The notes under the pieces: model-generated
Told to the model about the DNA's origin: nothing
Databases searched by the model: none
What the model saw: the letters and a program-made list of their open reading frames with translations, nothing else
Assembly: GCF_000732535.1 (NCBI RefSeq)
Contig: NZ_APNK01000004.1
Location: forward strand, 62,001-126,000
DNA length: 64,000 nt
Source: Salinisphaera hydrothermalis C41B8
GTDB taxonomy: Bacteria > Pseudomonadota > Gammaproteobacteria > Nevskiales > Salinisphaeraceae
Direction of reading: 5' to 3'
Made by a program: the position numbers and the translations under genes
Shown: positions 27,806 to 48,643 of the stretch, piece after piece
Layout: each line of letters opens with the position of its first letter
Numbering within the stretch: position 1 is the stretch's first letter

Positions 27806-29518
27806 TCAGGCACTGGCGCGCGCCGGCACCTCGGTGAGGCGCGCCGTTCCCTGATCCAGCCGATAGACGCGGCTGGAGCGCTCGGTCAGCGCCGTTCGAT
27901 GCGACACGGCCAGGACCGTGTAATCTTTGCCGAGATCCGCCAGCGTGGCGCTGACAGCGGCCTCGGTCTCGGGGTCCAGCGCGCTCGTCGCTTCGTCGAG
28001 AATGAGAAGCCGGGGCCGATGCACGAGCGCGCGCGCGATGACCACGCGCTGACGCTGGCCGCCGGACAACCGCCCGCCATGCTCTCCGACGTTGGTATGA
28101 ATGCCCTGGGTCAGGCCGCTAATGAAGTCCCAGGCGCCGGCGCGCTTGAGCGCATCGATCGCCGCATCCTCGGACAGGTTTTCATCGCCCACCACGACGT
28201 TGTTGTAGATGCTGTCGTTCAACAGGATCGTATCCTGCGGCACGTAGCCAATCATCGAACGCCAGGCGCGGATATCGATATCGTCGATCGGCACGCCGTC
28301 GATCAGAATCCGTCCCTGCTCGGTGCGCAGCAGGCCGATGATCAAATCGATCAACGTGGTTTTGCCAGCGCCGGAGAAGCCGATCAACGTCGTGAACTCG
28401 CCGGCCGGAATCTCGATGTTCACGTCGCGCAGGACCGAGCGCCCTTCGTAACCGAAGCTCATGTGTTCGACGGTCACGCCCTTCTCGAGGGTGGGCTTGC
28501 GTTCGCCGAATTCCGCCTCGCGCGCGGCCCGGGCGTTCTGGATCTGCTCTTTCATCGCCCAGTAGAAGGCCTCGCGCGACGCCAGCTTCTGGTATTCCTG
28601 CTGCACCTTGCTCAGTCGCGTCAGCATACGCGCCAGCACGATCGTCAAGACCATGATTTCCGACAGCTGCAGGTTCCAGACCAGCAGCGAAGCCGCGACA
28701 CCGACAATCAGCACGATGCCGATCAGCAGCTCCTGCAGTGCTTTCAGCGACTCCTGTGCGAGGACCCGCATGCGCAGCGCGCTGTTGAGTTCGCGCGTCT
28801 GACGCTCAAGCATGCGATCGATCTGCCCTTCCCGGGCCATGGATTTCAGCGGCTTGAGCGAGGAGAGCGAATCGGTCAGCAGGGCCATGAGCTGCTGAAA
28901 AGCGTTGCTTTGCCGACCGCCCGCCTCCCGCGAGATCGATACCATGATCTTGAGCACGCCGAACACAAGGCTGCCGACGACCATGGCCAACGCCGCGATC
29001 TTCCAGTTGATAAGTAGTGCGACGATCAGAAAAACCGTCGCCTGGGAGATCAGCGCGGCGAAATTCGCCATGCTCTGAAAAGCCTCGGCACTGTTGGTCG
29101 CCTCGGTCGAAATCGTGTTCGACAGCCGGCCAGTGCGCTGGCTCAGAAAATATTCCCAGCGGGAAGACGACAGCGCCCGCAGGAAGTTCAGCCGCCCGTC
29201 CGTCGCAATGGCTGCGACGGTGTAGCCCACCTGCCGATAGGCAAACAGGGTCAGCCCCGCCTTCAGCACCAGACCGACCGCCACGATGCTGATCATCGTG
29301 CCGATGGTCGGACTGATGGATAACCAATGCAGCCCTTCGCTGAGGAAATCCGAGGTCTTGTGGCTGACCAGGCTGGAACTACCGTTGGTGGCGATGGTCA
29401 GAAGCGGCAATAGCGTCGATATGCTGAGGCCTTCCGCAACGCTGGCCACCGTGAGGCTCACGCACACAAGCAGGCACTGCAACGGATATTGGTTGATGAA
29501 CTCTTTGATCAGCCGCAC
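27806..29518 (-). CDS. MsbA-type ABC exporter
   Basis: A 570-residue half-transporter with a fused transmembrane domain (about residues 1-310, six helices) and nucleotide-binding domain. Walker A is GFSGAGKTT, the signature is LSGGQRQR and Walker B is RLLILDEATSALD, followed by the H-loop (VLAVSHRTAL). Such proteins flip lipid A, lipid-linked oligosaccharides or other lipids, or export peptides. Starts at GTG with a weak AGAG ribosome binding site. As the last gene of a long glycan and sphingolipid cluster it is a natural candidate to flip the finished lipid across the inner membrane. The substrate is inferred from context only. Confidence 0.85.
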   Translation of the reverse strand: MRLIKEFINQYPLQCLLVCVSLTVASVAEGLSISTLLPLLTIATNGSSSLVSHKTSDFLSEGLHWLSISPTIGTMISIVAVGLVLKAGLTLFAYRQVGYTVAAIATDGRLNFLRALSSSRWEYFLSQRTGRLSNTISTEATNSAEAFQSMANFAALISQATVFLIVALLINWKIAALAMVVGSLVFGVLKIMVSISREAGGRQSNAFQQLMALLTDSLSSLKPLKSMAREGQIDRMLERQTRELNSALRMRVLAQESLKALQELLIGIVLIVGVAASLLVWNLQLSEIMVLTIVLARMLTRLSKVQQEYQKLASREAFYWAMKEQIQNARAAREAEFGERKPTLEKGVTVEHMSFGYEGRSVLRDVNIEIPAGEFTTLIGFSGAGKTTLIDLIIGLLRTEQGRILIDGVPIDDIDIRAWRSMIGYVPQDTILLNDSIYNNVVVGDENLSEDAAIDALKRAGAWDFISGLTQGIHTNVGEHGGRLSGGQRQRVVIARALVHRPRLLILDEATSALDPETEAAVSATLADLGKDYTVLAVSHRTALTERSSRVYRLDQGTARLTEVPARASA

Positions 29519-30012
29519 GATATCAACTCTCGGCCAGGACGCCGCCTTTTATAACTAGCGACAAATTCTACCTTCCCGCATCCCGTTTTCATAAGCTGGT
29601 CACAACTCCCGCCGCGATCCCGAATGGGTGAACACGACACTGCGGCGATCTTCTGAACTCATATCGCACTATTCACGCCCCTCCCGGCCGGCGCACCATA
29701 ACAGCGGATGCCGTCCCGGACGCCAGTCATTACATACTGACGTCGATTCATGAACGAACGCGCTTTCCGGGCGTTCGCGACCGGTATGCGAGTGGCACGC
29801 CACCAACCATGGAAGCCACAAGCCCGACATCCCACCCGTGAAGACACTCGGCTACGGAACGGACGACAACAGGCGCGGGGATTCGGCCTTCTGCCAACAC
29901 GGCATCACACACGGTGCGCTCGGCTCGGGGCTGGCGACCCGTGCGGGATTCAATAACTGCATTATACCTACGTCTATATCACGATGCCGGATGCCGGCTT
30001 GTCTCGATAGAT
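29519..30012. other. 494-base gap before the ABC exporter gene
   Basis: This stretch lies between the stop of the sialyltransferase-like gene and the start of the ABC exporter. It looks less GC-rich than its surroundings. The short open frames in it have no family character, and I see no tRNA, insertion sequence or clear terminator. It may carry a separate promoter for the exporter. Confidence 0.4.
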
Positions 30013-31089
30013 TCAACGCCGCTCGATATCGAGTGATTCGAACAATCCGGCCAGCTTGTCATCATGGATATCGAGAGAGCGCATGAGCGATACGGCGGGC
30101 GTATCGGGCAATATCCATTTCGCGGTGATCAGCGCGGTGCCGATATCCCCGTACACGCGCCGGATCGAACCGCGACCGGCGAGATACACGAGTTCCGACG
30201 GTACCGCATGCGGAATCAGCTTGGCGCCCAGCGCGGTCAGATCGAGCCAATCGGCCTCGCGCTCGCGCGGATGATAGCTCACGGCCACTTCATCCCCGGC
30301 CGCCGCATGCTCGGCGACCGCTTGTCTGATAACGCGGGCGTATCCGTCATGCCCTTTAAAATTGTTGCGATGAGCCAGCATGAACAGCACGTCGGCGCTC
30401 AGATCCTCGAGCGTCGCGCCGACTCGCTGCACATAGTCGGCCGGCCAGGCCATGGTATTGAAGAAATCCAGATCGGACGCCGGCAGACCGACAACGTGGC
30501 GTCGTAGTTCCGGCCGTACCCGCGCCGGGAACCGCGCATAGAAACGATCGATGTTCGACGACGCGCCCTCGACCTCGACGGCTTTTGTACGCGGGCCGAA
30601 CAGCAACCGGCTTTTGAAGCGTTCGCTGGGGCTCGACGTCATGCGCTGGTCGATATAGGCAATGGCGCCGTCCTCGACCGCAATGATTTCGGCCTGGCGC
30701 CGACGCAGAATCCGCGCAGCGTATTGGTTCAGGTCGTCTTCGTTGAAGATGAAAAGCCGTCGAGGGCTCACGCCCTTCGCCACCCGTCGCATGCCGGCGG
30801 CGCGCGTCTTGTCGATCAGAGCGCGCCAGCGGCGCTTGTATTTCCGGCCCGGTCGGTCCAGGAAATACACCGCCTGAAACGGCACGCCGGGATCGGCCTG
30901 CACCGCGTCGTAGAGCTCGGGGAAGCTCGTCACCGGCTGATGCTTCATCAACAGCGCGCTGGTGCCCGGCGCGACTGCCGTATCGCGCGCCAGCAGATGC
31001 GCCAGGATCAGGTGATAGGCCGATGCCACCACGAACAGGTTATCGGCCTGAATCGGCCGACAACCTCTCGGATAAAGAAAAGCCGTCAA
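30013..31089 (-). CDS. Sialyltransferase-like glycosyltransferase (GT52/polysialyltransferase type)
   Basis: A 358-residue GT-B-like protein. The N terminus, NLFVVASAYHLILAHLLA, resembles the start of GT52 and bacterial polysialyltransferase-type enzymes. The C-terminal half has VSYHPREREADW, an HP motif that in these families contacts the CMP leaving group, and a late DIGTALITAKWI segment in the position of their conserved S/T-rich motif. A CMP-sugar donor is therefore plausible. No CMP-sialic acid synthesis genes are in the window. It probably starts at TTG with GAAGAG just upstream; no suitable ATG exists. CDP-glycerol-type transferases are an alternative. Confidence 0.55.
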   Translation of the reverse strand: MTAFLYPRGCRPIQADNLFVVASAYHLILAHLLARDTAVAPGTSALLMKHQPVTSFPELYDAVQADPGVPFQAVYFLDRPGRKYKRRWRALIDKTRAAGMRRVAKGVSPRRLFIFNEDDLNQYAARILRRRQAEIIAVEDGAIAYIDQRMTSSPSERFKSRLLFGPRTKAVEVEGASSNIDRFYARFPARVRPELRRHVVGLPASDLDFFNTMAWPADYVQRVGATLEDLSADVLFMLAHRNNFKGHDGYARVIRQAVAEHAAAGDEVAVSYHPREREADWLDLTALGAKLIPHAVPSELVYLAGRGSIRRVYGDIGTALITAKWILPDTPAVSLMRSLDIHDDKLAGLFESLDIERR

Positions 31090-31142
31090 GTACTCTTCGC
31101 TCGCGTCGAGTGCCGCAGGGCCAGTCGAATTACCCTGCCCGA

Positions 31143-31991
31143 CTAGGCGGGCCGCTCAGCTGATTCCGGCGCCGTTCGATATTCGCCGGGCACGTTGTTG
31201 TATTCACGCTGAGCGCAAGCCTCGATAAAGGCTTCGTCTGTCTTTTTGACGCTGTCCGGCAGACGGCGCGCATCGGCCAGGCGCTTTTCCAGCTGGTAAT
31301 TCAGCGACGGACGCACCAACTCGGCCTGCACCGCCTGGTCGACCTCGTCCCCGGTGATATAGCCGTTGTCCACCGCTTGGAACAGATACTCGAACCAAAG
31401 CTTCGACAGCTTGTGGCGATGATGAATCCACGGCTGCGTCGACTTGCCCGTATAGTGAAGCATGCCGGTGAACGGCCAGCGATAGCGGTCGAGCGAATTC
31501 CATGTTCGCGGCAGATTCGGCGAGTAATCCTCGAGAGAGAACAACCGCTGATAGCTGTAGCGCTCTGCGTCCAGATCGCTCACGATCTGCGACATGCGCC
31601 AGTCCATGCGTTCGCAATCCAGCAGCATGAAGCTCGAGCGTAGCATCGGCCGCGCCTTGCGCCCCTTGTGCGTATCGCAGAAGGCCAGTGGCTGCTTGTC
31701 GAGCGGATGATCAAAAACCCGTGCAATATCCTTGAACACGATTTGATCGCAGTCCATGTAGATACCGCGACCCTTGAAGCCTGCGATTTCCGGAATCATG
31801 AAACGCTGGAAGGAAAACGGCGTCCCCGGGCGGTTCTGCGGCTTACTCGGCATCCGGAAGTCCACCGCGTGCGCATGCAGGTGATAGAACTGCACTGCAC
31901 GGCTGGCATGCTTGCGCACGGACCACTCGAGAACCTTGGCGACCAGGGTCTGCGCCGGAGAACAACCGATATATATTTGGATATCCTGCAT
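31143..31991 (-). CDS. GT8-family glycosyltransferase
   Basis: A 282-residue GT-A enzyme. The start IQIYIGCSPAQTLVAKVLEWSVRKHAS follows the GT8 pattern, and YMDCDQIVFKDI provides the metal-binding DxD near residue 88. A late LHYTGKSTQPW segment is the second conserved GT8 feature, containing the HxxGxxKPW-like motif. GT8 enzymes add galactose or glucose to LPS cores with retention. Its nearest relative in the window is the N-terminal domain of the large GT8-ELM1 fusion. It lies 53 bases from its downstream neighbour. Confidence 0.8.
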   Translation of the reverse strand: MQDIQIYIGCSPAQTLVAKVLEWSVRKHASRAVQFYHLHAHAVDFRMPSKPQNRPGTPFSFQRFMIPEIAGFKGRGIYMDCDQIVFKDIARVFDHPLDKQPLAFCDTHKGRKARPMLRSSFMLLDCERMDWRMSQIVSDLDAERYSYQRLFSLEDYSPNLPRTWNSLDRYRWPFTGMLHYTGKSTQPWIHHRHKLSKLWFEYLFQAVDNGYITGDEVDQAVQAELVRPSLNYQLEKRLADARRLPDSVKKTDEAFIEACAQREYNNVPGEYRTAPESAERPA

Positions 31992-32047
31992 AGCTCATTC
32001 GTCTCCGAAGCGACGGGAATCATTTGAGCTGGCTTTCAATTGGCCGC

Positions 32048-33958
32048 TCAAGGGGATTGCGTGTGCTCGGTCATCCACGCCTGCAGCATGAGCAGCGCCC
32101 ATATCTGTTTCTGCCAGGCCCGTTGATCCGTGTGCTGAGCCCGCCATGCCTGCTGCACGAGCTCCGGATCGAGCAACCCCTGGCGCGACAGGCGCTCCCG
32201 GCTCAGCAGGTCGCTGGCCCATTCCTTGAGCGGGCCGGCCAGCCATTGTCCGATCGGCGCCCCGAACCCTTGTTTGGGACGCTCGTACAGCGCACGCGGC
32301 ATGTATTGAGCCAATAGTTCGCGCATCAGCCACTTGCCCTGGCCATCGCGATATTTCATCCGCATGGGCAGGCGCCACGATAATTCGGCCACATTAAAAT
32401 CCAGTAGCGGGCTGCGCACTTCCAAACCACAGGCCATGCTGGTGCGATCCACTTTAGCGAGTATAACGTCCGGCAGATGCGTCGTCTGGTCAGCCAGTAG
32501 CAGACGTTCAATCGGGTCGGCCAACCCGGGCCACTGAGCGGTGGCCACGTAATACGCGCCGCGCTCGATACGGCCGTCTGCCAATAACGGGCTGTCGTAC
32601 AGCCAGTGGCAAAATTCATAGTAATAAAGCTCATCGAGCGAGCCGGCACGCCGACGGGCGATCGATATGGGGTGACGACGCCCGCGCGGCAAGCGCTCTT
32701 GCACGGCCGCCGACATACGCCGCAGGCGATGCGGCACGCGCGCGAGTTTGCGCCAGCGCCGCGGCACACGATGAAATCGCGAGTAGCCGCAGAAGAACTC
32801 GTCTCCGCCATCGCCCGTCAGGGCCACCTTGATATGCGGCCTGGCCTGCTTTGCGATCAGATAATTGGGCACCTGCGCAAAATCCGCCGATGGCTCGTCG
32901 ACGATCTCCGGCATGCGCGGCACCGTATCGATCGCTTCCTGATCGGTGATGTGCAGCTCCGTGTGCCGGGTGCCGAGGTGCTCGGCAATCGCCCGGGCAT
33001 ACTCGGTTTCGCCCTTGCCGTGCGCACCGAAGCCCAGGGCGTAGGAATGCACGGGCTGCGCGCTTTGCTGCTGCATGATGGCAAGAACCAAGGAGGAATC
33101 GATCCCGCCCGAAAGAAATGCCCCCAGGGGCACCTCCGATACCATGCGGTAATGGGTCGCACGATGCAGCGCTTCGTCGAGCGCCTGGACGGCCTGAGCA
33201 TCGGTCCAGTCTGTACGCTGTGCCGCGGCGCGTTGTGCGACGTCGGCCATCGACCAATAAGCGACTGCGAGCGCCATCGGATCCTGCGGCCGGCGCGCGT
33301 CACGTGCATCGAGCGTGATGAAATGGCCGGCGGGCAACTTGTAGATGCCCTCATAGATGCTGTTCGGGCACGGCACGTGCCCGAGCTGGAGATAGCGCTG
33401 TATGGCCGTCGAATCGATTCGGGCCTCGAAATCGGGCAGGCTGTTCAAGGCCCGTAGCTCCGAGGCAAAGACGAACCCCGACCGGGTCCAGCCGAAAAAC
33501 AGCGGTTTCTGCCCGATCCGATCCCGCGCCAGACTCAATCGGCGCTCGGCCCGATCCCAGAGGGCGATCGCGAACATGCCGTTCAGCCGGTCGAGGGTGG
33601 CCGACAGGCCCCAGCAGCCGATCGCGGCCAGCAACACTTCGGTATCCGAATGTCCCTTGAAGGGATAACCGCAAGGCTCGATTTCCGCCCGCAGCTCGGC
33701 AAAATTATAGATCTCGCCGTTGAAGACGATTACATATCGGTCGTCGGCGGACACCATCGGCTGGTGGCCCTGTGGCGACAGGTCGACGATCGACAACCGT
33801 CGATGGCTCAGGGCCAGACCGGTGTCGCTATCGGCCCAGACGCCGGCATCATCGGGGCCGCGGTGACGCAAGCGGTCCGCCATGCGCCGTGCGCAGGCCG
33901 CGATACCGTCGTCGCGAACCGTATCGCCCACTCGCCATAGCCCCGCAATTCCACACAT
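32048..33958 (-). CDS. AsnB-type glutamine-dependent amidotransferase
   Basis: A 636-residue class II amidotransferase related to asparagine synthetase. I chose the start giving MCGIAGLW because Cys2 must become the N-terminal nucleophile; the open frame extends 87 codons upstream without similarity. The glutaminase domain shows HRGPDDAG, LSHRRLSIVDLS and FNGEIYN. The synthetase domain has the PP-loop FLSGGIDSSLVLA and ALTGDGGDEFFCGY. In glycan loci such enzymes are often taken to amidate uronic acids or other sugar acids rather than aspartate. It sits 5 bases after a GT4 gene. Confidence 0.88.
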   Translation of the reverse strand: MCGIAGLWRVGDTVRDDGIAACARRMADRLRHRGPDDAGVWADSDTGLALSHRRLSIVDLSPQGHQPMVSADDRYVIVFNGEIYNFAELRAEIEPCGYPFKGHSDTEVLLAAIGCWGLSATLDRLNGMFAIALWDRAERRLSLARDRIGQKPLFFGWTRSGFVFASELRALNSLPDFEARIDSTAIQRYLQLGHVPCPNSIYEGIYKLPAGHFITLDARDARRPQDPMALAVAYWSMADVAQRAAAQRTDWTDAQAVQALDEALHRATHYRMVSEVPLGAFLSGGIDSSLVLAIMQQQSAQPVHSYALGFGAHGKGETEYARAIAEHLGTRHTELHITDQEAIDTVPRMPEIVDEPSADFAQVPNYLIAKQARPHIKVALTGDGGDEFFCGYSRFHRVPRRWRKLARVPHRLRRMSAAVQERLPRGRRHPISIARRRAGSLDELYYYEFCHWLYDSPLLADGRIERGAYYVATAQWPGLADPIERLLLADQTTHLPDVILAKVDRTSMACGLEVRSPLLDFNVAELSWRLPMRMKYRDGQGKWLMRELLAQYMPRALYERPKQGFGAPIGQWLAGPLKEWASDLLSRERLSRQGLLDPELVQQAWRAQHTDQRAWQKQIWALLMLQAWMTEHTQSP

Positions 33959-33963: not shown

Positions 33964-35247
33964 TTACTCCCGCTCCAGCCGGCCATCCGGCCACGTCTCG
34001 TAGTCCGAATCCGGCGCCAACAGTTCCGCCACGCAGGACAGATAACGCCGCACACTGGTCTCCACCGAAAAATCGCGGGCACGTGCGACAAGCTCGGCGC
34101 GCGGCGTCGGCGCATCGAGCATCTGATCGATCGCGGCGCTCAGGCCGGCCTCGTCGCCGACCTCGGCCAACGGTCCGAAACGACCGTCCGCCAGGATCTC
34201 GCGAGAACCACTCGGACAATCGGTCGAAACCACTGCGCAGCCGCTGCCCATCGCTTCGATCAGCGCGGTGCTCAATCCTTCCCAGGCCGAAGACAGCACG
34301 AATACCGCCGAGTACTGCATGTAGTCGTAAGGATTGTCTACCCAGCCCGGCAAACGTACGTCCTCGGCTACGCCCGATCGAACGGCCTCGGCTTCCAGAT
34401 CATGACGAAGACCGCCTTCACCCAGGATGATCAAGCGAGCCAGGCGTTTTTTTCGTACCCGGGCAAAGGCCCGGATAAGCGTGGTGAAATCTTTCTGCGC
34501 TTCCAGCCGGCCCACGCCGAGAACGACCGGCGGCGCGCCCGTGGCGAACCAGTCGTCGGCCGGTGGCGCGCCCTCTCGATCCAGAACCTCCGGCGTACAG
34601 GACGGGTTGTAGAGCGTGATGACGCGATCGCGCGGCAACCCGGTCGTACGTGCCAAGTCATCGGCGGCGCCATCGGACACGGCCGCCACCCGATCCGCAC
34701 TCATGTAAGCGCGCTTGAGCAATGCCGGCAAATGACGCCAGCGCCAGCCTTCGCCGCGCCTGGCCTGGCCATCTGCAATCAGCTGCGACACGCTGTTGTG
34801 CTGCGTCACGATCAGCCGGGTCTCGACCCCGGCCAGTCGCCGCGCCCAGATTGCACCGAGGTTGGCGTAGAACAGGGCGGAAATCAGTAAAGCGGGCCGT
34901 TCGCGGCGCAGATAGTCGGCCAGCGACGATACATAACGCAGCCCCATGATCGGCATTGGCGCTAGGAGTACCGGCCGCAACAGGACACCGATATCGCCGG
35001 GATTGGCGCGGGCGATGGACAGACGCGCCGCCCATTTATTCTGTCGGTTCAGTACGACCACCGACCGCAGATGCGGTGATATCGCCCCTGCATAGGCGCC
35101 CTGCTCGCGATTGACCACCAGATCGACCCGATGGCCACGGCGGGCGAACTCATCCGCCAGACGCAGCATGACGCGCTCCGCCCCGCCACCGGCGAGGGTC
35201 GGAATATAGAACGCGATATGGGTGGGCGGCAATTCGTCTGGCGGCAT
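33964..35247 (-). CDS. GT4 glycosyltransferase (second of a tandem pair)
   Basis: A 427-residue GT-B enzyme. The start giving MPPDELPPTHIAFYIPTLAGGGAERVMLRLADEFARRGH lies one base after the upstream gene's stop; the frame is open further upstream but only as an overlap with that gene. The C-terminal nucleotide-sugar domain has VLGVGRLEAQKDFTTLIRAFA, LPGWVDNPYDYM and the retaining-GT4 motif SSAWEGLSTALIEAMGSG with its acidic residue. It is similar along its whole length to the preceding gene, so the pair probably arose by duplication. Acceptor unknown. Confidence 0.88.
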   Translation of the reverse strand: MPPDELPPTHIAFYIPTLAGGGAERVMLRLADEFARRGHRVDLVVNREQGAYAGAISPHLRSVVVLNRQNKWAARLSIARANPGDIGVLLRPVLLAPMPIMGLRYVSSLADYLRRERPALLISALFYANLGAIWARRLAGVETRLIVTQHNSVSQLIADGQARRGEGWRWRHLPALLKRAYMSADRVAAVSDGAADDLARTTGLPRDRVITLYNPSCTPEVLDREGAPPADDWFATGAPPVVLGVGRLEAQKDFTTLIRAFARVRKKRLARLIILGEGGLRHDLEAEAVRSGVAEDVRLPGWVDNPYDYMQYSAVFVLSSAWEGLSTALIEAMGSGCAVVSTDCPSGSREILADGRFGPLAEVGDEAGLSAAIDQMLDAPTPRAELVARARDFSVETSVRRYLSCVAELLAPDSDYETWPDGRLERE

Positions 35248-37553: not shown

Positions 37554-38268
37554 CCCGTCGCACTTCTCCTGCCAGCCGCCCCTTGAGACGCCGGATACCG
37601 GCCCGCAGGCGATCATTGATCACAACGATGAACACCTTGCGGTACATGCCTTCCGGGCAGGTGATCTCGCGCACGCCGTGCCAGGATCGCTCCATGCGCT
37701 GGAACAGCAGGCTGTAGTTGCCGATGCTCTCGCCGGCGAACGCCTGGTCGAAATCCTCGAACTCGGGCGCGGACTTGCGGCTGAAACGCCCGTGGTCATC
37801 GAGAATCACGGTGTCGCCGCCCCATTCGGGCTTCCAGACGCCCGGCGGGCTGAAATAGAAGATGTGGGAGCCGAGCTTGCGCGTGGCATCACAGTGTGGC
37901 GATACCGAACTCCCGGTCGGCGCGTAATGCCAATGGAAATTCAGTTTGAAGCGACCGCGACCGAACATCCGTTTGATGAAGTCGTAATAACGGTCGCTCT
38001 TGAGCTCGGATACGAACGCATGCCATGCCGGATCGATGTCCAGGCTCTCGTCGTATTCCAGCGCATAGCGATCGTGGGGCTTCTGCCCGTGTGAGCGTTT
38101 CACGCCGAAGCTCGGCACCATCTGGTCGACCGTGGGCAAGGTCTCGTACAGCTTCTCGTAGGCCTCGTCGGTCAACAAGGATGCCGGATTGACCCACGGA
38201 TAGGGATAGGCATTCTGGAACTGGCTGGTCTCGATTTCAGCCAGCCGATCAAAGTCAAGATATTGCAT
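37546..38268 (-). CDS. 2-oxoglutarate/Fe(II)-dependent oxygenase
   Basis: A 240-residue protein with the facial triad of the 2OG-Fe(II) superfamily: His125 and Asp127 in SPHCDATRKLGSH and the distal His197 in RSWHGVREI, followed by an Arg in MYRKVFIVV that would bind 2-oxoglutarate. It would hydroxylate or otherwise oxidise a glycan, lipid or protein substrate. Similar proteins occur in bacterial surface polysaccharide loci. It is coupled to the sulfotransferase gene, so a hydroxylation followed by sulfation is conceivable. Substrate unknown. Confidence 0.78.
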   Translation of the reverse strand: MQYLDFDRLAEIETSQFQNAYPYPWVNPASLLTDEAYEKLYETLPTVDQMVPSFGVKRSHGQKPHDRYALEYDESLDIDPAWHAFVSELKSDRYYDFIKRMFGRGRFKLNFHWHYAPTGSSVSPHCDATRKLGSHIFYFSPPGVWKPEWGGDTVILDDHGRFSRKSAPEFEDFDQAFAGESIGNYSLLFQRMERSWHGVREITCPEGMYRKVFIVVINDRLRAGIRRLKGRLAGEVRRDV

Positions 38269-41843: not shown

Positions 41844-42782
41844 CTATGCGTGTTGTTGATGCACCGTCTTCGGCCAGCGCCGCTTCAGGCACAGCCATTG
41901 ATCGGGATGCCGCACGATCTCGGTCTCGAACAACGCGTTGATCTGGCGGCTCATGTCGAGCACCTTGGCATCGCGGCTCGCTTCCGGTTCGCTGGGCCTG
42001 ATCGGTGGATGAATATTCACACGGAATCGGCCGTCGGGCAGGCGCTCGGCCAGCACTGGCACCACATCGCAATCGAAACGCAGCGCCAGGCGCGCCGGCG
42101 CGGTGTTGGTCATGGCGGGATGCCCGAAGAACGGGATCGCCTCGCCACTGTCCAGACGGGTGTCGACGGTCAGGCCGATCGACTCGCCCCGCCCCAGAGA
42201 GCGCATGAACATGCGCATGCCGCCGTCACGTGAAACCAGCGGGTTGGCAAAGACCCGGCGCAGCCGGTTCAACGTCCGGTCTACATAAGGGTTCTGTTCC
42301 GGCGCATAGATGACGGGCAGAGGCACATCGTAATAACGCCCTATCAACGGCGTGAGCTGCCACGGGCCGAAATGTGCGGTTACGAAAACGGTCTGTCGGT
42401 CGCGATGCGGCACGCTCGCACCCGGCATGACGTTGAACTCGACGCGCTCGCCGCGATGGCGCCACAGACGATCGAGATTGGCCAGTTCGGCCATGGCCAC
42501 ACCCACATTGGCGAACGAGGCCCGGGTGATGCGCTCGAGCTTGTCACGACCGGCATTGGGGAAGATCACGCGAAGATTGCGCCGAACCTTCTCCACGCGC
42601 GGCGACAAATGACCGAATGCCTCGCCCAGCAGGGCCCCGACCGAGAACGCCATCTTCAGCGGCAGAATACGAAGCAGGCCGATCATGCTCTTGAGCACGG
42701 CGGCTTCGGCCCACCACATCAGCCGCCGGCGCCATGCAGTCACTTCGTGACTACGGCGCCCCGAGAAGTAGAATCGCGCCAT
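41844..42782 (-). CDS. LpxL/HtrB-family acyltransferase with altered catalytic motif
   Basis: A 312-residue lysophospholipid-acyltransferase-family protein like the lipid A late acyltransferases LpxL and LpxM. An N-terminal membrane-associated helix, the segment RVEKVRRNLRVIFPNAG and a DGGMRMFMRSLGRGESIGLTVDTRLDSGEAIPFFGHPA block fit the family. The catalytic H(X)4(D/E) motif reads HFGPWQ, so His137 is present but the acidic residue is Gln142; the codon is CAG. Activity may be altered or lost. It follows the LpxO-like gene and may acylate or bind the sphingolipid or lipid A. Confidence 0.8.
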   Translation of the reverse strand: MARFYFSGRRSHEVTAWRRRLMWWAEAAVLKSMIGLLRILPLKMAFSVGALLGEAFGHLSPRVEKVRRNLRVIFPNAGRDKLERITRASFANVGVAMAELANLDRLWRHRGERVEFNVMPGASVPHRDRQTVFVTAHFGPWQLTPLIGRYYDVPLPVIYAPEQNPYVDRTLNRLRRVFANPLVSRDGGMRMFMRSLGRGESIGLTVDTRLDSGEAIPFFGHPAMTNTAPARLALRFDCDVVPVLAERLPDGRFRVNIHPPIRPSEPEASRDAKVLDMSRQINALFETEIVRHPDQWLCLKRRWPKTVHQQHA

Positions 42783-42844: not shown

Positions 42845-43606
42845 CTAACTGGTGGCCGCACGATAGCGTTCCTCCCAGGCACGCTGGTTCGCCATCGCAT
42901 CGCGGAAATAGGCCGTGCGCTTGAGCGCGGCAATCATCGCCCGCGACACGGCCCGTCCCGGCAGCCCCATGGGCCGCTCGATATCGAACAGCAGCACCGC
43001 ACGCTCGCCGTCGGTCTTGTTCCAGACCTCATGCGGATAGGTATCGTCGAAGAAGAACATGCCCCCTTCTTCCCAATGGCAGTCCACGTCGTCGACCTGA
43101 ATCAGACACGGCTCCGGCGAATCGGGCACCCGCAGCCCGATGTGGCAGCGCACCAGCCCCTTGGTCACACCGCGATGCCGCGGAATATGCTTTCCCGGCC
43201 CGAGGATCGAGAAGAAGGCATTCGACAGGCCCGGGATCTGATCGAGCGCGGCCGAAGTCGCCGGGCACATCTGACGGCCGAACTCCATGCGCTCGCCGAA
43301 GCCGTGCAGCCAGAAGGTCTTCCATTGATCATCGGTGGAGATCCGCGACTGGTCCGGGCTGATCTCCTGGAAGCTCGGTAGCGCATTCCGGCGCTCGAGC
43401 AGCTGATCGAGCTCGTCGCGCATGGCTTTCCACTGCAGGCGAACCCCTTCGGCCCACGGAAACAGCGCATTATCGAGCACCGGCTCATCGGGAATTCGCG
43501 ACTGCGCCGACAGGAAATCCATCAACGTGCCGCGAAACAGCTTCTTGCCGAAACGCTTGACGGTCTTGCGTCGGAATCCGGCGATGCCGGACGAATCAGC
43601 ACTCAT
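42845..43606 (-). CDS. Aspartyl/asparaginyl beta-hydroxylase family protein (LpxO-like)
   Basis: A 253-residue Fe(II)/2-oxoglutarate dioxygenase of the AspH / LpxO family. Iron ligands are seen as His144 in IPRHRG and His192 in TYPHEVWN, with His155 in VRCHIGLRVP. The acidic GGMFFFDDTYPHEVWN segment is diagnostic. LpxO adds a 2-OH to secondary acyl chains of lipid A. Here the gene lies between an SDR next to spt and an LpxL homologue, so 2-hydroxylation of a sphingolipid N-acyl chain is an equally reasonable role. No signal peptide; probably a cytoplasmic-face enzyme. Confidence 0.82.
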   Translation of the reverse strand: MSADSSGIAGFRRKTVKRFGKKLFRGTLMDFLSAQSRIPDEPVLDNALFPWAEGVRLQWKAMRDELDQLLERRNALPSFQEISPDQSRISTDDQWKTFWLHGFGERMEFGRQMCPATSAALDQIPGLSNAFFSILGPGKHIPRHRGVTKGLVRCHIGLRVPDSPEPCLIQVDDVDCHWEEGGMFFFDDTYPHEVWNKTDGERAVLLFDIERPMGLPGRAVSRAMIAALKRTAYFRDAMANQRAWEERYRAATS

Positions 43607-43639: not shown

Positions 43640-44413
43640 TCAGGCATCGGTGGCCCGCCCCTGTCCCGCCATCACTCGGCGATAAGCGGGAAACGGTAGC
43701 AATCGCAATATGTTGGCGGCAAACACCAGACTTGCGGGGCCCCGCCAGAGCCGCCGCCGCGCGATTATAGCGCTCGCCATCCGCCGGGTGGCAACGTCCA
43801 TGGGCATGCGCATCCGGCGTTTCTTCGAATCAGGCTTGGCCACGAAACCGGGTTCGAGCAGCGTGACATCGATTCCCGTATCCCACAGATCGATGGCCAG
43901 GCTCTCCATGAAATTCGCGACCCCGGCCTTGGCGGCCGAATATGCCGCCGCCGTCGGCAACCCACGCAACGCCGCCAGACTGCCCATGGCCACGAGATGC
44001 CCCCGCCCCCGGGCGCGCATGTCGTCGAGCACCACGCCCACCGCATTCGCCGTACCGATCAGATTAAGCCGGATCGTGTCTTCCACGCACTCGGCGTCAT
44101 ATGCCGCGATATGCGTCGGTTGCCCACCGCCGGCATTGGCGACCAGGCGCGTGATCGGACCGAACTCCGAACGCACGCGCTCCGCCGCTTGGGCCAGCGC
44201 GGATCGGTCGGTCACGTCTGCCGTCACGGCCATCGCGCGTCCACCCTCGTCCGTGATGCGTGCAACGAGTGCTTCCAGCTCGGCCCGACGACGCGCCAGC
44301 ACGGCTACGGCATCGCCGCGACGAGCCAATTCGAGAGCCAGATAGTAGCCGATACCCTGTGACGCGCCCGTAATGAGCGTCACTTCCGACCGGACTTCAC
44401 CGGACCGATTCAT
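43640..44413 (-). CDS. Short-chain dehydrogenase/reductase
   Basis: A 257-residue classical SDR. NAD(P)-binding TGASQGIG at residues 15-22, NAG at 93-95, catalytic Ser145, Tyr158 and Lys162 in the order typical of active enzymes. The Arg residues around 42-44 after the second beta strand favour NADPH. The C-terminal 60 residues include a hydrophobic stretch, as in 3-ketodihydrosphingosine reductases. It lies 50 bases after spt, so reduction of 3-ketosphinganine or another keto lipid is likely, alongside or instead of CerR. Identity as a sphinganine reductase is inference. Confidence 0.75.
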   Translation of the reverse strand: MNRSGEVRSEVTLITGASQGIGYYLALELARRGDAVAVLARRRAELEALVARITDEGGRAMAVTADVTDRSALAQAAERVRSEFGPITRLVANAGGGQPTHIAAYDAECVEDTIRLNLIGTANAVGVVLDDMRARGRGHLVAMGSLAALRGLPTAAAYSAAKAGVANFMESLAIDLWDTGIDVTLLEPGFVAKPDSKKRRMRMPMDVATRRMASAIIARRRLWRGPASLVFAANILRLLPFPAYRRVMAGQGRATDA

Positions 44414-44463: not shown

Positions 44464-45657
44464 CTAACCGGCCTTGGCCAGCGGTGCCCCGATATCCTTG
44501 AACGCCGCCACGATATGATCGATCTGCTGGCGGCTGTGCGCTGCGCTCAGACTCGCCCGAATCAGGCACTTGCCACCCGGCGTCGCGGGCGGGAGCATGA
44601 GATTCACGTAGACGCCGCGATCGAGCAACCCCTGCCAGAAGGCGAGCGAGGTCTCGCGCGAGTCGAAGACCGCAGCCACGACCGGGCCGGGCGGCGCCGC
44701 AAGCGTGAAACCGGCGCGAGACAGCCCGCGGTGCAGGCGGTTCGCGTTGCCCCAGATACGATCGCGCAGGCTGTCGTCGTCACGCAGGCGCGCCAACGCC
44801 GCCCGCACCGAGGCGATGACCGAGGGCACCGGCGATGCCGTGAAGATATAGGGCCGACTGGCATAACGGATCATATCCAGTTCGGCATGCGGACTGACGC
44901 AGAATCCGCCGGCCGCACCCAGGCTTTTGCTGAAGGTTCCGACGACGAAATCGACCTGATCCATGACGCCGGCCGCCTCGACCACGCCGCGTCCGTGCTG
45001 ACCGACGATGCCCATCGAATGAGCCTCGTCGACGAGGATCGCCGCCCCGTGTTTCTTCACCACCGCCACGATCTCGGCCAGCGGCGCCATATCGCCGAGC
45101 ATACTGTAGATACCCTCGACCACCACCAGCGTGTGCTGCGCGGCTTCGCCAAGACGCCCGAGCCGCTTGTCCAGATCGGCCGGGTCGTTGTGCTTGAACA
45201 GCAGTGTCCGGGCGCCGCCGAGCTTGAGCCCGTCGTAGATGCTGGCATGACAATCCGCGTCCAGCATCACGGTGTCCCGCGGGCCGGCGAGCGCTGCCAG
45301 CATGCCCAGGTTGGCCTGATAGCCGGTGGAGAAGACCACCCCATGCCCGACGCCGTAAAATGCGGCGAGCTCGGCCTCGAGCGCCATGTGACCGTCGTAG
45401 GAGCCGTTCGCCATGCGCGAACCGGTGGTGCCGGTGCCCTGGGACCGCACGGCCGCAACCGCGGCTTCGACGCAGTCGTCATCGAAGGTCAGGCCCAGAT
45501 AATTGTTCGTCCCGGCCAGAATCATGCGCCGGCCACCGATCACCCCCTCGGTCGCCGAAATGATGCGCTCGATCGGCACGCCCAGCGGATCGATGCCCGA
45601 CGCCTCGATATCGCGCCGTATGCGAGCGATCGGCTCGAACTTGTCGAACAGGCTCAG
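44464..45657 (-). CDS. spt: Serine palmitoyltransferase (possible independent CTG start)
   Basis: A 397-residue alpha-oxoamine synthase that condenses serine with an acyl-thioester, the first step of sphingolipid synthesis. It shows NNYLGLTFDDD near 51, His137 in DADCHASI stacking on PLP, Asp210 and His213 in DEAHSMG, and the PLP-Lys244 in GTFSKSLGAAGG. Family similarity begins at SLFDKFEPIARIRRDIEASG, but no ATG, GTG or TTG is available there. The only nearby candidate is CTG overlapping the acp stop as CTGA, a CTG version of the usual ATGA coupling, with GGAGG 13 bases upstream. Otherwise Spt is made only as the CerR fusion. The acp, CerR and acyl-ACP synthetase neighbours separate it from KBL and BioF. 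Confidence 0.8.
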   Translation of the reverse strand: MSLFDKFEPIARIRRDIEASGIDPLGVPIERIISATEGVIGGRRMILAGTNNYLGLTFDDDCVEAAVAAVRSQGTGTTGSRMANGSYDGHMALEAELAAFYGVGHGVVFSTGYQANLGMLAALAGPRDTVMLDADCHASIYDGLKLGGARTLLFKHNDPADLDKRLGRLGEAAQHTLVVVEGIYSMLGDMAPLAEIVAVVKKHGAAILVDEAHSMGIVGQHGRGVVEAAGVMDQVDFVVGTFSKSLGAAGGFCVSPHAELDMIRYASRPYIFTASPVPSVIASVRAALARLRDDDSLRDRIWGNANRLHRGLSRAGFTLAAPPGPVVAAVFDSRETSLAFWQGLLDRGVYVNLMLPPATPGGKCLIRASLSAAHSRQQIDHIVAAFKDIGAPLAKAG

Positions 45658-46848
45658 GCGGCGAGGCTGTCCTCCATCGCCTTGACCAGATCGTCCATCG
45701 TCTCGACGTCCGGCAGGAAGTTCATCGGAATGGAGGCGTCCAGACGGTCCTCCAGCTCCATGAGCACTTCCATCACCTGCACCGAATCCAGACCCAGATC
45801 GTCCACCAGCTTGGTCTGCGGCTCGATCTTGGTGTCGGCCGGGACGTAGGGCCCGAGCAACTCGTGCAAATGGGTATAGATTTCGTCGTAGCGGTTGCTC
45901 ATGGCGTGATCCGTTGTCGCTTGAGGCACCGGCCCAGTCGCAGGTCGCGGCCAGCCCGGCACGCAGATCCAGTCGCGGCTGCCATTCGATCGTACCGAGC
46001 AACGAGGCGTTGTCGGCGACCCAGTCGGCATGGCGCAGTTCTCGCAGCTTGCCCGGCGTCAACATCGGCGCCCGGCCGGCCAGCCGCGACCAACCGCTGT
46101 TGAGCACAGCCGTGGCACGCATGGCCGCTGCCGGCAGCACGAGTCGGCGAATCGGCGCGCCACGCAGTTCCTCGGCCGTCGCCACAACATCGTTCCAACT
46201 ATAGCCGCCCGCGTGGCCGTCGTGTATCTCGTGAATGCCGGTCGCCCGCGCTCCGCCCTCGACCCAGGCCAGGATCGCGGCCGCGAGATCGTACACGTGA
46301 ATCAGCGAGACACGTGCTTCCGGATTGCCCGGGATCGGCGCATACCCCCGCCCCATGGCATCGAACAATGGCGTGAGCTCGCGATCGCCGGGGCCATAGA
46401 CGGCCGGCGGACGCAACACGAAGGCCGGCGCTGGCGCGTCGGGCTCGGCGAGCAGGCATTCCATCGTGCGTTTCGTCATCGCGTAGTGCGACAGCGAGGG
46501 TTCGCGCGCAGCAAGCGAGGACAGCGCCAACACCGCGCATCCCGCCCGGCGGGCGGCCGCGAACAACCGCGCGCTGCCAGCCACGTTGACCTTGGCGAAA
46601 TCGCGATAACCGACACCGCGGACCTGGCCGGCGCAGTGAACCAGCGCATCGGCACGAGACACCAGCTCGCTCAGACGCGCCGGATCCGACAAATCCCCGC
46701 GGATCGGCACCGCACCCATGGCACGTACCCCGCCGGCCGCTTCCGGGGTACGCGCAAGAGCCTGAACGCGGTGTCCGGCAGCGACCAGAGCGGCGACCGT
46801 GGCGCGCCCGATGAAGCCGGTGGCGCCAGTGACTGCGACGACCGCCAC
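44464..46848 (-). CDS. cerR: Continuous CerR-Spt reading frame (CerR N-terminal, serine palmitoyltransferase C-terminal)
   Basis: One open frame of 794 codons with no internal stop. Residues 1 to about 314 are an NAD-dependent epimerase-like protein of the CerR (ketoceramide reductase) type: GATGFIG at 8-14 and YxxxK at Tyr122-Lys126. Residues 315-397 are read through the acp gene in a different frame and look like an Arg/Gly-rich filler. Residues 398-794 are serine palmitoyltransferase. A ribosome starting at CerR would make the fused protein unless it shifts frame or drops off. I start at GTG, eight bases after the aasR stop; another GTG at 46896 is possible. In Caulobacter the genes are separate, in the same order. 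A lost base near the CerR end is the main alternative. Confidence 0.7.
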   Translation of the reverse strand: MAVVAVTGATGFIGRATVAALVAAGHRVQALARTPEAAGGVRAMGAVPIRGDLSDPARLSELVSRADALVHCAGQVRGVGYRDFAKVNVAGSARLFAAARRAGCAVLALSSLAAREPSLSHYAMTKRTMECLLAEPDAPAPAFVLRPPAVYGPGDRELTPLFDAMGRGYAPIPGNPEARVSLIHVYDLAAAILAWVEGGARATGIHEIHDGHAGGYSWNDVVATAEELRGAPIRRLVLPAAAMRATAVLNSGWSRLAGRAPMLTPGKLRELRHADWVADNASLLGTIEWQPRLDLRAGLAATCDWAGASSDNGSRHEQPLRRNLYPFARVARALRPGRHQDRAADQAGGRSGSGFGAGDGSAHGAGGPSGRLHSDELPAGRRDDGRSGQGDGGQPRRLSLFDKFEPIARIRRDIEASGIDPLGVPIERIISATEGVIGGRRMILAGTNNYLGLTFDDDCVEAAVAAVRSQGTGTTGSRMANGSYDGHMALEAELAAFYGVGHGVVFSTGYQANLGMLAALAGPRDTVMLDADCHASIYDGLKLGGARTLLFKHNDPADLDKRLGRLGEAAQHTLVVVEGIYSMLGDMAPLAEIVAVVKKHGAAILVDEAHSMGIVGQHGRGVVEAAGVMDQVDFVVGTFSKSLGAAGGFCVSPHAELDMIRYASRPYIFTASPVPSVIASVRAALARLRDDDSLRDRIWGNANRLHRGLSRAGFTLAAPPGPVVAAVFDSRETSLAFWQGLLDRGVYVNLMLPPATPGGKCLIRASLSAAHSRQQIDHIVAAFKDIGAPLAKAG
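45654..45902 (-). CDS. acpR: Acyl carrier protein for sphingolipid synthesis
   Basis: An 82-residue acyl carrier protein. The phosphopantetheine-attachment Ser is in LVDDLGLDSVQVMEVLMELEDRL, and the acidic helix pattern of ACPs is intact. In Caulobacter the equivalent ACP carries the acyl chain that Spt condenses with serine. The gene is nested within the CerR-Spt open frame but in another frame; its codons give a clean protein whereas the overlapping frame gives Arg/Gly-rich filler, so ACP is clearly the real product in this stretch. Its TGA overlaps the putative CTG start of spt. Confidence 0.88.
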   Translation of the reverse strand: MSNRYDEIYTHLHELLGPYVPADTKIEPQTKLVDDLGLDSVQVMEVLMELEDRLDASIPMNFLPDVETMDDLVKAMEDSLAA

Positions 46849-46855
46849 GAACGGG

Positions 46856-48643
46856 CTAACCGGCTTGTCTGTCGCTTTCGACGACAGCGGCCTCACCGGC
46901 TGAAGCCGCTGCCGACTGCCGACGCTGCAGCTGCTCGGTCAACCGCTGAATATAGTCGCGACGGGCGCCGGCCCGCGACAGCTTGCCCGACGACGTGCGC
47001 GGCAGCGTATGCGGCGCCACGGCCTCGACCAGGCATTCAACGCCGCACTCGCGCCGCATCAAACCTTCAAGCCGCTTGATCAGCTCCTCGCGGGCGGCAC
47101 CGTCGCGTACGCGACACTGGATGACCAGCACGGCGCCATCGCTGCCCGACTCCGAAGGCGCGGCGAACGCAAGCGCATCACCCGGGCGCAGCTCGGGCTG
47201 GGATTCGGCCAGCCATTCCAGATCCTGCGGCCAGATGTTGCGACCGTTGACGATGATCAGATCCTTGGCGCGCCCAGTAATGACGATCCGCCGCCCGATG
47301 CGATAACCCAGGTCACCGGTATTGAGCCAGCCATCTTCGGACAGCACACGCGCGCTCTCCTCGGGCCGCTCGAAGTAGCCGGACATCACGCTCGGCCCGC
47401 GCACATGCACGGTCCCGACTTCGCGCTCGTCCAGAATACGACCGTCGTCGCCGCGAATCTCGAAATCGTATTCGGGCAGCACTTCGCCGCATTCCACGAA
47501 CCGCGCCGCCCGCTCGCTGCTATCGGCATCGGCCGGCTTGGCCACGCCTGTTTCGGCCAGCGATTCTGCGTCGACGTAATCCACCGCGAGACCTTGGTCA
47601 AGCGGCGCGAAACTGATCGCCAACGAACATTCCGCCATGCCATAACATGCGACGAATGCACGCCGATCGAACTTCCCCGGAGCCAGCGTATCGGCAAATC
47701 GGGCCAGCGAATCCGGGCGAATGGTTTCAGCACCGGCGCCGGCGATACGCCAGCTCGACAGATCGAAATCGTCGGCGTTGTGGCGAATACGGCGCGCGCA
47801 CAGCTCGTACCCGAACGACGGGCTGAACGAAATTGTCCCGCGGTTGCGACTGATCAACGACAACCACTGACGCGGCCGCATCGCGAAGTCGCGCGTGGCG
47901 AGATAGTCCACCGAGCGCTGCGACGTCAGCGCGGCGAGCATGAAGCCGACCAGCCCCATGTCGTGATACAGCGGCAGCCAAGAGACCAAACGGTCGTCCG
48001 CGCGCATCTGCACACCAAGCTCCAGAATGCTCGACAGGTTTTGCATCACCTGCGCCTGCGAGATCACCACGCCGCGCGGGAACTGCGTGCTACCGGAGGT
48101 GTACTGCAGATAAGCAGTGCGCGTAACGTCCTGCGGCGGCAGATCGCCTTCGGCCGGCGCCAGATCGTCCAGCGAATCGTAGCTGCCGATATACGACAGC
48201 GTCATACCTTCGGCGGCCGACTCCAGAAAACTCATGAACGCTTCGGGGGCGAGCGCCACATCCGCGTCACACCCCTGAAGCAAGGAGCGCAGCTGACGCG
48301 TGTAGGCATCGCGACTGCCCAGACCCACGATCACCGGCAACGGCACCGGGACATAACCGGCGTATTGGCAAGCAAAGAAGCACACCATAAAACCCGGCAC
48401 GGTATCGGCGACCAGCGCGACGCGGGCACCTTCGTCCAGGTTGAGCGACATGAGCCGCTGGGCAGTGTCGCGCGCCCGCTCACGCAAATCAGCGTAGCTA
48501 AGCACGTCCGACAGCTCGCCGCGGCCGGTGTAGAAATTGAACCCTGTCTCGCCTTCGCCCGCATAGTCGAGCGCATCGCCAAGCGTGGCGAAATCGGCCC
48601 GACGCATCGACAGCCAGTGTTCTGTGGGCGTTGGCTTGATCAT
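46856..48643 (-). CDS. aasR: Fatty acyl-AMP ligase / acyl-ACP synthetase
   Basis: A 595-residue adenylate-forming enzyme. The ATP-binding motif is YTSGSTQFPRG at residues 181-191, the variant seen in fatty acyl-AMP ligases. ACYGMAECSLA, NTGDLGYR and the late catalytic Lys in SSGKLSR are present. By homology of gene order to Caulobacter AasR it should load a fatty acid on the neighbouring ACP for Spt. The ATG chosen has AGGT six bases upstream. It is the first gene of the leftward arm, and its 5' flank carries a perfect dyad. Confidence 0.82.
   Translation of the reverse strand: MIKPTPTEHWLSMRRADFATLGDALDYAGEGETGFNFYTGRGELSDVLSYADLRERARDTAQRLMSLNLDEGARVALVADTVPGFMVCFFACQYAGYVPVPLPVIVGLGSRDAYTRQLRSLLQGCDADVALAPEAFMSFLESAAEGMTLSYIGSYDSLDDLAPAEGDLPPQDVTRTAYLQYTSGSTQFPRGVVISQAQVMQNLSSILELGVQMRADDRLVSWLPLYHDMGLVGFMLAALTSQRSVDYLATRDFAMRPRQWLSLISRNRGTISFSPSFGYELCARRIRHNADDFDLSSWRIAGAGAETIRPDSLARFADTLAPGKFDRRAFVACYGMAECSLAISFAPLDQGLAVDYVDAESLAETGVAKPADADSSERAARFVECGEVLPEYDFEIRGDDGRILDEREVGTVHVRGPSVMSGYFERPEESARVLSEDGWLNTGDLGYRIGRRIVITGRAKDLIIVNGRNIWPQDLEWLAESQPELRPGDALAFAAPSESGSDGAVLVIQCRVRDGAAREELIKRLEGLMRRECGVECLVEAVAPHTLPRTSSGKLSRAGARRDYIQRLTEQLQRRQSAAASAGEAAVVESDRQAG

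Follow-up and report, generated by a model that had tools for sequence, protein, structure and literature searches.

A putative island for sphingolipid decoration and export in Salinisphaera hydrothermalis, with a mobile glycan cassette inserted in it

What is made by a gene run that joins ceramide genes, glycosyltransferase-type genes, and an ABC exporter, and does the run act as one system? These questions are raised by the stretch of the Salinisphaera hydrothermalis C41B8 genome analyzed here (64,000 nucleotides; contig NZ_APNK01000004.1, positions 62,001 to 126,000), which is hereafter called the window. An earlier interpretation from the letters alone (the sequence-only reading) had taken positions 27806-48643 of the window as a single system that assembles and flips a glycosphingolipid, analogous to those of Sphingomonas and coexisting with lipid A. 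In this work, we found that this run and an adjoining divergent arm form a block (27806-53173) flanked by secA on one side and lpxC on the other, and that each relative has either the entire block or none of it. The block is probably a dedicated island for making a sphingolipid, decorating it with sugars and other groups, and flipping the product across the inner membrane. The run itself is composite: the ceramide core, the decoration genes, and the exporter are conserved, and five genes (30013-36481) are a separate insert.

Gene content of the block and its occurrence in the family

The run contains 17 genes from aasR to the ABC exporter gene, with cerR and spt counted apart, and all are on the minus strand (Table 1). 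As the sequence-only reading had described, the genes are closely packed, with intergenic gaps of -35 to 62 nt; the exceptions are a nested acpR gene and a 494-nt gap that separates the exporter gene from the PF07388-like gene and has no convincing open reading frame (ORF). For promoters and terminators at the exporter, one and three were found, respectively, compared with 1.1 and 2.0 in shuffled sequences. The divergent arm (49119-53173) is linked to the aasR end and is followed by lpxC. Neither these divergent genes nor the acyl carrier protein gene at 45654-45902 had been mentioned in the sequence-only reading. The rhodobacterial ceramide gene set (aasR, acpR, spt, cerR, and cerS) is complete in the block, the cerS-like gene being assigned by synteny and a 46.6% match.

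Seven glycosyltransferase-type domains were found in the run, in agreement with the earlier count of at least six: two ELM1, two GT4, one GT8, and one PF07388-like domain were identified by Pfam, and the N-terminal GT8 fold of a fused protein, which Pfam missed, was recognized from a fold model. Among the other enzymes named from the letters, the AsnB-type amidotransferase and the LpxL homolog were recovered, while the sulfotransferase and the 2-oxoglutarate (2OG) oxygenase scored below the Pfam cut-offs. Two labels were refined. The hydroxylase, called LpxO-like, scored higher against OlsC (228.7 bits; cut-off 450) than against LpxO (118.1 bits; cut-off 500). The exporter, called MsbA-type, was nearer to HepA (277.3; cut-off 725) and PglK (248.3; cut-off 1000) than to MsbA (236.5; cut-off 602), and PglK is its best bacterial chain in the PDB list. 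All of these scores are below the curated cut-offs.

The family sample includes 17 genomes (S. hydrothermalis C41B8 included), of which 10 have spt and seven do not; individual genomes are referred to by handles such as G007 where needed. The co-occurrence with spt that the sequence-only reading had expected was observed in this sample. At least two ELM1-family matches are present in 10/10 spt-bearing genomes and none in the 7/7 others. An exporter ortholog (57-100% identity) is present in 9/10 and 0/7, respectively, and matches in the spt-free genomes do not exceed 39%. The spt-bearing genome without the exporter is G009, whose contig ends at that place. The nine further island genomes have all the conserved island genes other than the exporter, which is found in eight. 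The order of the conserved part, with the cassette excluded, is the same in these nine genomes, and a chance run was therefore rejected. In G014 and G016, the exporter gene has stayed next to secA and the other genes next to lpxC, either at a large distance or on a different contig; both parts are retained. In 6/7 spt-free genomes, lpxC adjoins secA (0.5 to 1.7 kb apart), representing an empty site. In the seventh, G010 (81% complete), the contig ends after the divergent arm, so this genome is probably a carrier whose island could not be read. On a tree of LpxC and SecA, the presence and absence of the block correspond to three gains or losses, two to three of which are forced by well-supported branches, and S. 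shabanensis, which has the block, is sister to two block-free genomes.

The transferases had also been expected to be missing from relatives that combine a lack of sphingolipid genes with the presence of waa genes. For the ELM1 proteins and the exporter, this agrees with the seven spt-free genomes, which all have three GT9 (heptosyltransferase-type) genes each. S. hydrothermalis C41B8, the only genome searched for waaA, has waaA and a canonical lpxL together on another contig and three GT9 genes elsewhere, so an absence of waa genes was rejected. Because these genes are located outside the island, the sphingolipid would coexist with lipopolysaccharide (LPS), which supports the earlier proposal of a decoration and export block alongside lipid A. 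The island LpxL gene is found in the 10 spt-bearing genomes only, and every genome has one stronger lpxL elsewhere. A further weak LpxL match was found in G000, G007, and G014, as well as a second lpxL elsewhere in the spt-free G015.

Table 1. Features of the block, from the aasR-like gene to the exporter and then along the divergent arm.
Feature	Position in window	Strand	Basis and remarks
aasR-like acyl-ACP synthetase	46856..48643	-	AMP-binding Pfam 174.7 bits; 70-91% in 9 other island genomes
CerR-type reductase + linker + Spt, one 794-aa open frame	44464..46848	-	Epimerase and Aminotran_1_2 in one ORF
CerR part of the frame	~45902-46848	-	within 794-aa frame
Spt (serine palmitoyltransferase) part of the frame	~44464-45645	-	within 794-aa frame
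acpR-like acyl carrier protein, 82 aa	45654..45902	-	other frame inside CerR-Spt linker; ortholog in 9 other island genomes
Short-chain dehydrogenase (SDR)	43640..44413	-	adh_short 159.7 bits; in 9 other island genomes
Acyl 2-hydroxylase, OlsC/LpxO type	42845..43606	-	PF05118 (Asp/Asn-hydroxylase type) 159.7 bits; 67-96% in 9 other island genomes
LpxL-family acyltransferase paralog	41844..42782	-	PF03279 (Lip_A_acyltrans) 149.5 bits
Fused transferase: GT8 fold, middle domain, C-terminal ELM1	39352..41781	-	PF06258 188.7 bits
Second ELM1-family protein, probable glycosyltransferase	38325..39386	-	PF06258 208.4 bits
2OG-Fe(II) oxygenase	37546..38268	-	PF13640 25.6 bits, under cut-off 27; 70-92% in 9 other island genomes
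Sulfotransferase-like protein, weak assignment	36537..37553	-	PF13469 23.6 bits, cut-off 27; in 9 other island genomes
Cassette GT4 glycosyltransferase	35249..36481	-	Pfam
Cassette GT4 glycosyltransferase	33964..35247	-	Pfam
Cassette AsnB-type amidotransferase	32048..33958	-	Asn_synthase 357.4 bits
Cassette GT8 glycosyltransferase	31143..31991	-	PF01501 24.7 bits, cut-off 24.3
Cassette PF07388 (A-2_8-polyST, alpha-2,8-polysialyltransferase-like) transferase	30013..31089	-	31.4 bits, cut-off 23.3
ABC exporter, HepA/PglK/MsbA type, proposed flippase	27806..29518	-	ABC_tran and ABC_membrane
Bacterial ceramide synthase (cerS/CC_1154)-like	49119..50330	+	no Pfam match; synteny with Caulobacter-type cluster; 46.6% match
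NTP transferase, CC_1153-like by position	50327..51133	+	PF12804 47.8 bits; 33%
DAGK-family kinase, ceramide kinase CpgB/CC_1160-like	51211..52215	+	PF00781 49.3 bits; 29%, 72 bits
Tam41-like, CpgC/CC_1161-like	52217..53173	+	PF09139 24.4 bits, cut-off 24; 35%

Sugar-transfer domains and distribution beyond the family

Both ELM1 matches of the window are above the PF06258 cut-off of 27. The model of the N-terminal part of the fused protein (pLDDT 91.4) has a GT8 (GT-A) fold (Z 18.4, rmsd 2.5, and 188 residues to 3tzt), and D118 and D120, which form a DxD motif, are invariant in an alignment of 43 sequences. The fused protein has no GT8 match in Pfam, and its search against the PDB sequences returned no match at E ≤ 1. 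In the first fold model, the whole fused protein had a mean pLDDT of 58.4; its ELM1 part is GT-B-like (Z about 12), with a weak model and large-rmsd matches. An ELM1 protein of Acinetobacter is reported to have a WaaA-like structure and to be required for the assembly of the lipooligosaccharide (LOS) core (PMC10936431). The function of bacterial ELM1 proteins is called ill-defined (PMC10936431). Based on the fold and this LOS core role, we infer that the GT8 and ELM1 domains transfer sugars. The Acinetobacter structure also bears on an earlier claim that the run lacks Kdo and heptose transferases as well as an O-antigen polymerase or flippase. In a Pfam scan, none of the Kdo, heptose, Wzy, and Wzx families was found in the proteins of the run, but the absence of Kdo transfer is less clear given the resemblance between ELM1 and WaaA.

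The association with sphingolipid genes extends beyond the family. In an order-level family of 54 genomes (f2), Spt (E below 1e-120) was found in 24, and ELM1 was found in 12 of these 24 and in none of the 30 others. In G032, G046, and G067, an ELM1 gene is located within ~6 kb of spt and an exporter homolog (38-39%) within ~9 kb. In the phylum sample of 299 genomes (S. hydrothermalis C41B8 included; p-values ignore relatedness), Spt is present in 30, and the exporter at E ≤ 1e-100 in eight, six of which have Spt (Fisher p 1.5e-5). In a tree of 49 ELM1 domains with no known root position, a branch (support 92/98; recovered in 89% of 200 bootstrap trees) separates the two ELM1 domains of the window and 23 others from the rest, and all 25 come from spt-bearing genomes. 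The other side contains 18 ELM1 domains from spt-free genomes and six from spt-bearing genomes.

A pattern scan of the genome collection for the fused transferase, with neighbors considered within at most 10 kb, identified 45 loci, namely, six in Salinisphaeraceae and 39 in other bacteria. The loci in Salinisphaera are from S. japonica YTM-1, S. shabanensis E1L3A, strain Q1T1-3, and metagenome-assembled genomes (MAGs). The distant loci are from Wenzhouxiangella, Methylopila, Hansschlegelia, Pelagibius, and MAGs labeled Planctomycetota, Deltaproteobacteria, Myxococcales, and Binatia, though MAG labels can be wrong. Near the fused transferase in these 39 loci, we found the exporter (22 loci), 2OG oxygenase (18), Tam41-like gene (17), DAGK-family gene (15), and Spt (10). 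At least one of Spt, Tam41, cerS, and aasR is present in 21/39, and a sphingolipid gene together with an exporter homolog in 20/39. One locus, from a MAG labeled Planctomycetota (L082:119-15794), has a nearly full set: ntp, cerS, aasR, cerR, acp, spt, fused transferase, 2OG, exporter, tam41, and dagk.

The copy number of LptF/LptG was compared among 31 genomes. Four copies are present in 8/9 spt-bearing f2 genomes (three in the ninth), and two in 5/5 spt-free f2 genomes, so in f2 a second pair accompanies the sphingolipid genes. In the family, 15/17 genomes have two copies, and G004 and G005 have an extra pair inside the island (G004:C3:236114-238206 and G005:C40:15273-17365).

Several observations weigh against an island that glycosylates and exports a sphingolipid. 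UDP-GlcNAc 2-epimerases are the top fold matches of the ELM1 part, narrowly ahead of GT-B transferases, and a fold alone shows neither the sugar nor the acceptor. The catalytic motif of LpxL is an HX4E/D dyad. In the alignment of the island proteins, the glutamate of HX4E is Q or T in eight genomes of the genus (E in G014 and G016), so the chemistry of this LpxL-family protein is uncertain. ELM1 is missing in 12/24 spt-bearing f2 genomes, and an exporter match at E ≤ 1e-100 is missing in 24/30 spt-bearing genomes of the phylum sample. Two of the eight exporter-bearing genomes, G102 and G137 (loci L132 and L133; close homologs), lack both Spt at the threshold and sphingolipid neighbors in 20 kb. 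In the phylum sample, ELM1 taken as a whole is only weakly tied to Spt (11/63 with ELM1 and 19/236 without; p 0.03), so the ELM1 family as such is not a sphingolipid marker. No sphingolipid gene is in reach in 18/39 distant loci, some but not all of which are on short contigs. Moreover, the neighbors in the 39 loci rarely include the remaining decoration genes (LpxL 0, hydroxylase 0, SDR 1, and sulfotransferase 2). Finally, S. hydrothermalis C41B8 does not have a second LptF/LptG pair, unlike G004, G005, and 8/9 of the tested spt-bearing f2 genomes.

The inserted cassette and the CerR-Spt frame

The cassette at 30013-36481 contains two GT4 genes and the AsnB, GT8, and PF07388 genes, and was seen inside the island in S. 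hydrothermalis C41B8 only. In the closest relative, G007 (Spt 95%), 489 bp separate the sulfotransferase and exporter genes, and the same five genes are found in the same order elsewhere (C1:74.7-81.2 kb; 51-75% identical; PF07388 gene in two pieces). This copy is more than 1.5 Mb from the island, either way round the 4.14-Mb contig, and its neighbors include a phage integrase, an IS481 transposase, and a second transposase, with a Wzx-type gene ~7 kb farther. Because of this location, the cassette is a mobile glycan operon with a merely possible tie to the sphingolipid, and one indivisible run, as assumed in the sequence-only reading, was rejected. The PF07388 gene is present at E ≤ 1e-10 in 4/81 genomes (S. 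hydrothermalis C41B8 included) and gives a strong match in two of the 81, namely, S. hydrothermalis C41B8 and G007. A foreign base composition was also considered and rejected: the cassette has a G+C content of 58-66% and a GC3 of 0.73-0.75, which overlaps the GC3 of 0.73-0.87 in the core and exporter genes without a clear difference.

Whether the cassette serves the sphingolipid at all is evenly balanced. It may instead serve a different surface glycan (O-antigen or exopolysaccharide), having landed in the island by chance, as suggested by its surroundings in G007 and by its absence from the other fetched island genomes, which have at most one GT4 gene there, on the opposite strand. However, in the window it lies between island genes and is oriented like the rest of the run, and its five ORFs include no mobile-element gene. 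In addition, a GT4 gene is present in 8/9 other island genomes, in the same gap or, in split islands, beside the exporter.

The ceramide core has an unusual arrangement of its own. In the window and in G001, G002, G007, G009, and G013, the CerR frame is stop-free to the end of Spt, and no in-frame ATG, GTG, or TTG occurs in the 150 nt before the FDKF motif of Spt. The fused arrangement is not found in the four other island genomes (G004, G005, G014, and G016), which have ATG at position -9, compared with CTG or GTA in five of the six fused genomes; G002 has another codon there, after a longer linker. In the other 28 spt-bearing relatives, the open frames are at most 548 aa. The acpR gene lies inside the CerR-Spt linker in a different frame, so cerR, acpR, and spt are not separate genes in the window and the five relatives. 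A sequencing error is an unlikely cause because six separate assemblies agree. The simplest prediction is that CerR, the linker, and Spt form one protein of ~794 aa, with acpR nested in its gene; in-frame start codons occur from ~9 codons inside Spt, so an internal Spt start is possible.

The probability of a chance open frame across acpR is 0.01-0.05 per genome based on codon usage and 0.05-0.25 when the codons of the gene itself are permuted. Since the sequences are related and 2/13 unfused genomes (G005 and G066) are also open across acpR, openness of the frame alone is a weak sign; the joint loss of stop and start codons is a stronger one. Dual-coding constraint on acpR was assessed by fourfold-site divergence, which gave no clear sign of it: the value for acpR in the fused clade is 0.353, compared with 0.434-0.506 in four other island genes, but that in the unfused pairs is also somewhat lower (0.483 vs. 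0.495-0.560). Separately, the cerR of S. shabanensis (G005; L028:9856-10802) is in two frames, representing either a broken gene or an assembly error.

Elsewhere in the window, one protein with repeated PKD domains (4771-6711, minus strand) is perhaps a surface protein, and genes for a PilS-type sensor kinase, a sigma-54-type response regulator, and a T2SSF-family protein are consecutive at 14878-19115 (plus strand).

Proposed pathway, known systems, and alternatives

Based on the gene families, AasR would load AcpR, and Spt, which shares one open frame with CerR, would carry out the condensation of serine and the acyl chain; ceramide would then be completed by CerR and the cerS-like enzyme. 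These steps are assigned because the families are known (PMC9386255; PMC11324152). The CpgB-like kinase would produce ceramide phosphate, on which the CpgC/Tam41-like enzyme would act next; this branch is indicated by the presence of both genes (PMC12275187). Probable modifiers of the acyl part are the OlsC/LpxO-type hydroxylase and the LpxL-type protein. The inner sugars probably come from the GT8-ELM1 fusion and the second ELM1 protein, and the 2OG oxygenase and sulfotransferase-like protein may modify the sugars. The PglK/HepA-type exporter is predicted to flip the product because of its family and its co-occurrence with spt, and onward carriage would probably be by the ordinary Lpt system. 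In this strain, the inserted cassette may extend the glycan.

The ceramide genes are of a known kind. In Caulobacter crescentus, the cluster for ceramide and the phosphosphingolipids CPG/CPG2 is CC_1152-CC_1168 (PMC11324152). It shares aasR, cerR, acpR, spt, cerS, ceramide kinase, CpgC-like, and CC_1153-like genes with the Salinisphaera block, and the putative flippase gene that adjoins it is a further likeness (PMC11324152). The GT8-ELM1, ELM1, 2OG, sulfotransferase-like, OlsC-like, LpxL-like, and ABC exporter genes are additional in the Salinisphaera block. The cluster of G377, labeled Caulobacter-type by gene content and order against the published description (PMC11324152), also has no exporter homolog.

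The transferases, exporter, and hydroxylase likewise have partial counterparts. Caulobacter Sgt1 and Sgt2 sequentially transfer sugars to ceramide in an LPS-bearing bacterium but are two different transferases (CCNA_00793 and CCNA_00792), compared here by description rather than by sequence (PMC6445935). The ELM1-like protein 2903/GtrOC1 of Acinetobacter baumannii belongs to the same PF06258 family and acts on a surface lipid glycan, the LOS core (PMC10936431; PMC4172580), whereas ELM1 in the window is fused to or located beside a GT8 domain, in a branch sampled only from spt-bearing genomes. PglK and HepA are the best curated matches of the exporter, with scores far below the cut-offs, and differ in that the window exporter is linked to spt. 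For the hydroxylase, OlsC and LpxO are of the same family, with OlsC being nearer, but the window gene is part of a ceramide operon.

In a Sphingomonas-type glycosphingolipid, the sugar is joined directly to ceramide. Given the linked ceramide kinase-like and CpgC-like genes, a decorated ceramide phosphate is a more likely product than such a glycosylceramide. The earlier analogy to Sphingomonas was accordingly not supported, these conserved partners pointing to the Caulobacter phosphosphingolipid branch; most spt-bearing genomes of the phylum sample also lack the exporter at E ≤ 1e-100, and no Sphingomonas gene entered this comparison by name. Reports of sphingolipids in Alphaproteobacteria are said to be restricted to Sphingomonadales (PMC7179689).

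Two other explanations were considered, and both are improbable. In the first, a variant LPS or LOS core is the product of the ELM1 and GT8 enzymes, sphingolipid synthesis is left to the ceramide genes alone, and the lpxC neighborhood reflects lipid A biology. The role of ELM1 proteins as LOS core genes in Acinetobacter (PMC4172580; PMC10936431) is consistent with this, as are the ELM1 genes within ~7 kb of an lpxL homolog in the spt-free gammaproteobacteria G150 and G262, and the LpxL-family protein and adjoining lpxC of the block. Yet the seven spt-free family genomes keep GT9 and lpxC without ELM1, the ELM1 domains of the window are apart from the 18 sampled from spt-free genomes, and the exporter tracks spt even when unlinked. 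In the second, the block makes CPG-type phosphosphingolipids as in Caulobacter, to which the ELM1/GT8 enzymes do not transfer sugars. This is just as doubtful: the CpgB-, CpgC-, and CC_1153-like genes fit it, but the GT8 fold with the invariant Asp pair argues for sugar transfer. Furthermore, CpgA, CpgD, and CC_1158 gave no tblastn match at 1e-8 in the window or the family islands, nor did the putative flippase positions in the family islands, a weak negative since the same search missed the profile-found LptF/LptG of G004 and G005.

Returning to the dedicated island, we tentatively suggest, at a little less than an even chance, that it represents an undescribed class of systems for glycosylated ceramide phosphates, with a GT8-ELM1/ELM1/2OG module and its own PglK/HepA-like exporter. 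This class would occur in Gammaproteobacteria, Alphaproteobacteria, and the MAGs labeled Planctomycetota, Deltaproteobacteria, Myxococcales, and Binatia, and one Salinisphaera lineage would have a CerR-Spt fusion with its linker overprinted on acpR. The titles and abstracts returned by searches of the open literature, which covered few subscription papers, contained nothing that ties ELM1 or Salinisphaera to sphingolipids, and none of the ELM1 branch, the GT8-ELM1 fusion, the exporter-spt tie, the mobile cassette, and the CerR-Spt frame.

The ELM1 branch from sphingolipid makers provides a concrete handle on ELM1 function in cultured environmental Salinisphaera, with the island-free sister species as natural controls, and the CerR-Spt frame with its nested acpR is an unusual gene arrangement. 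The proposed pathway would extend what is known of bacterial sphingolipid chemistry and of outer membranes in which LPS and sphingolipid may be present together.

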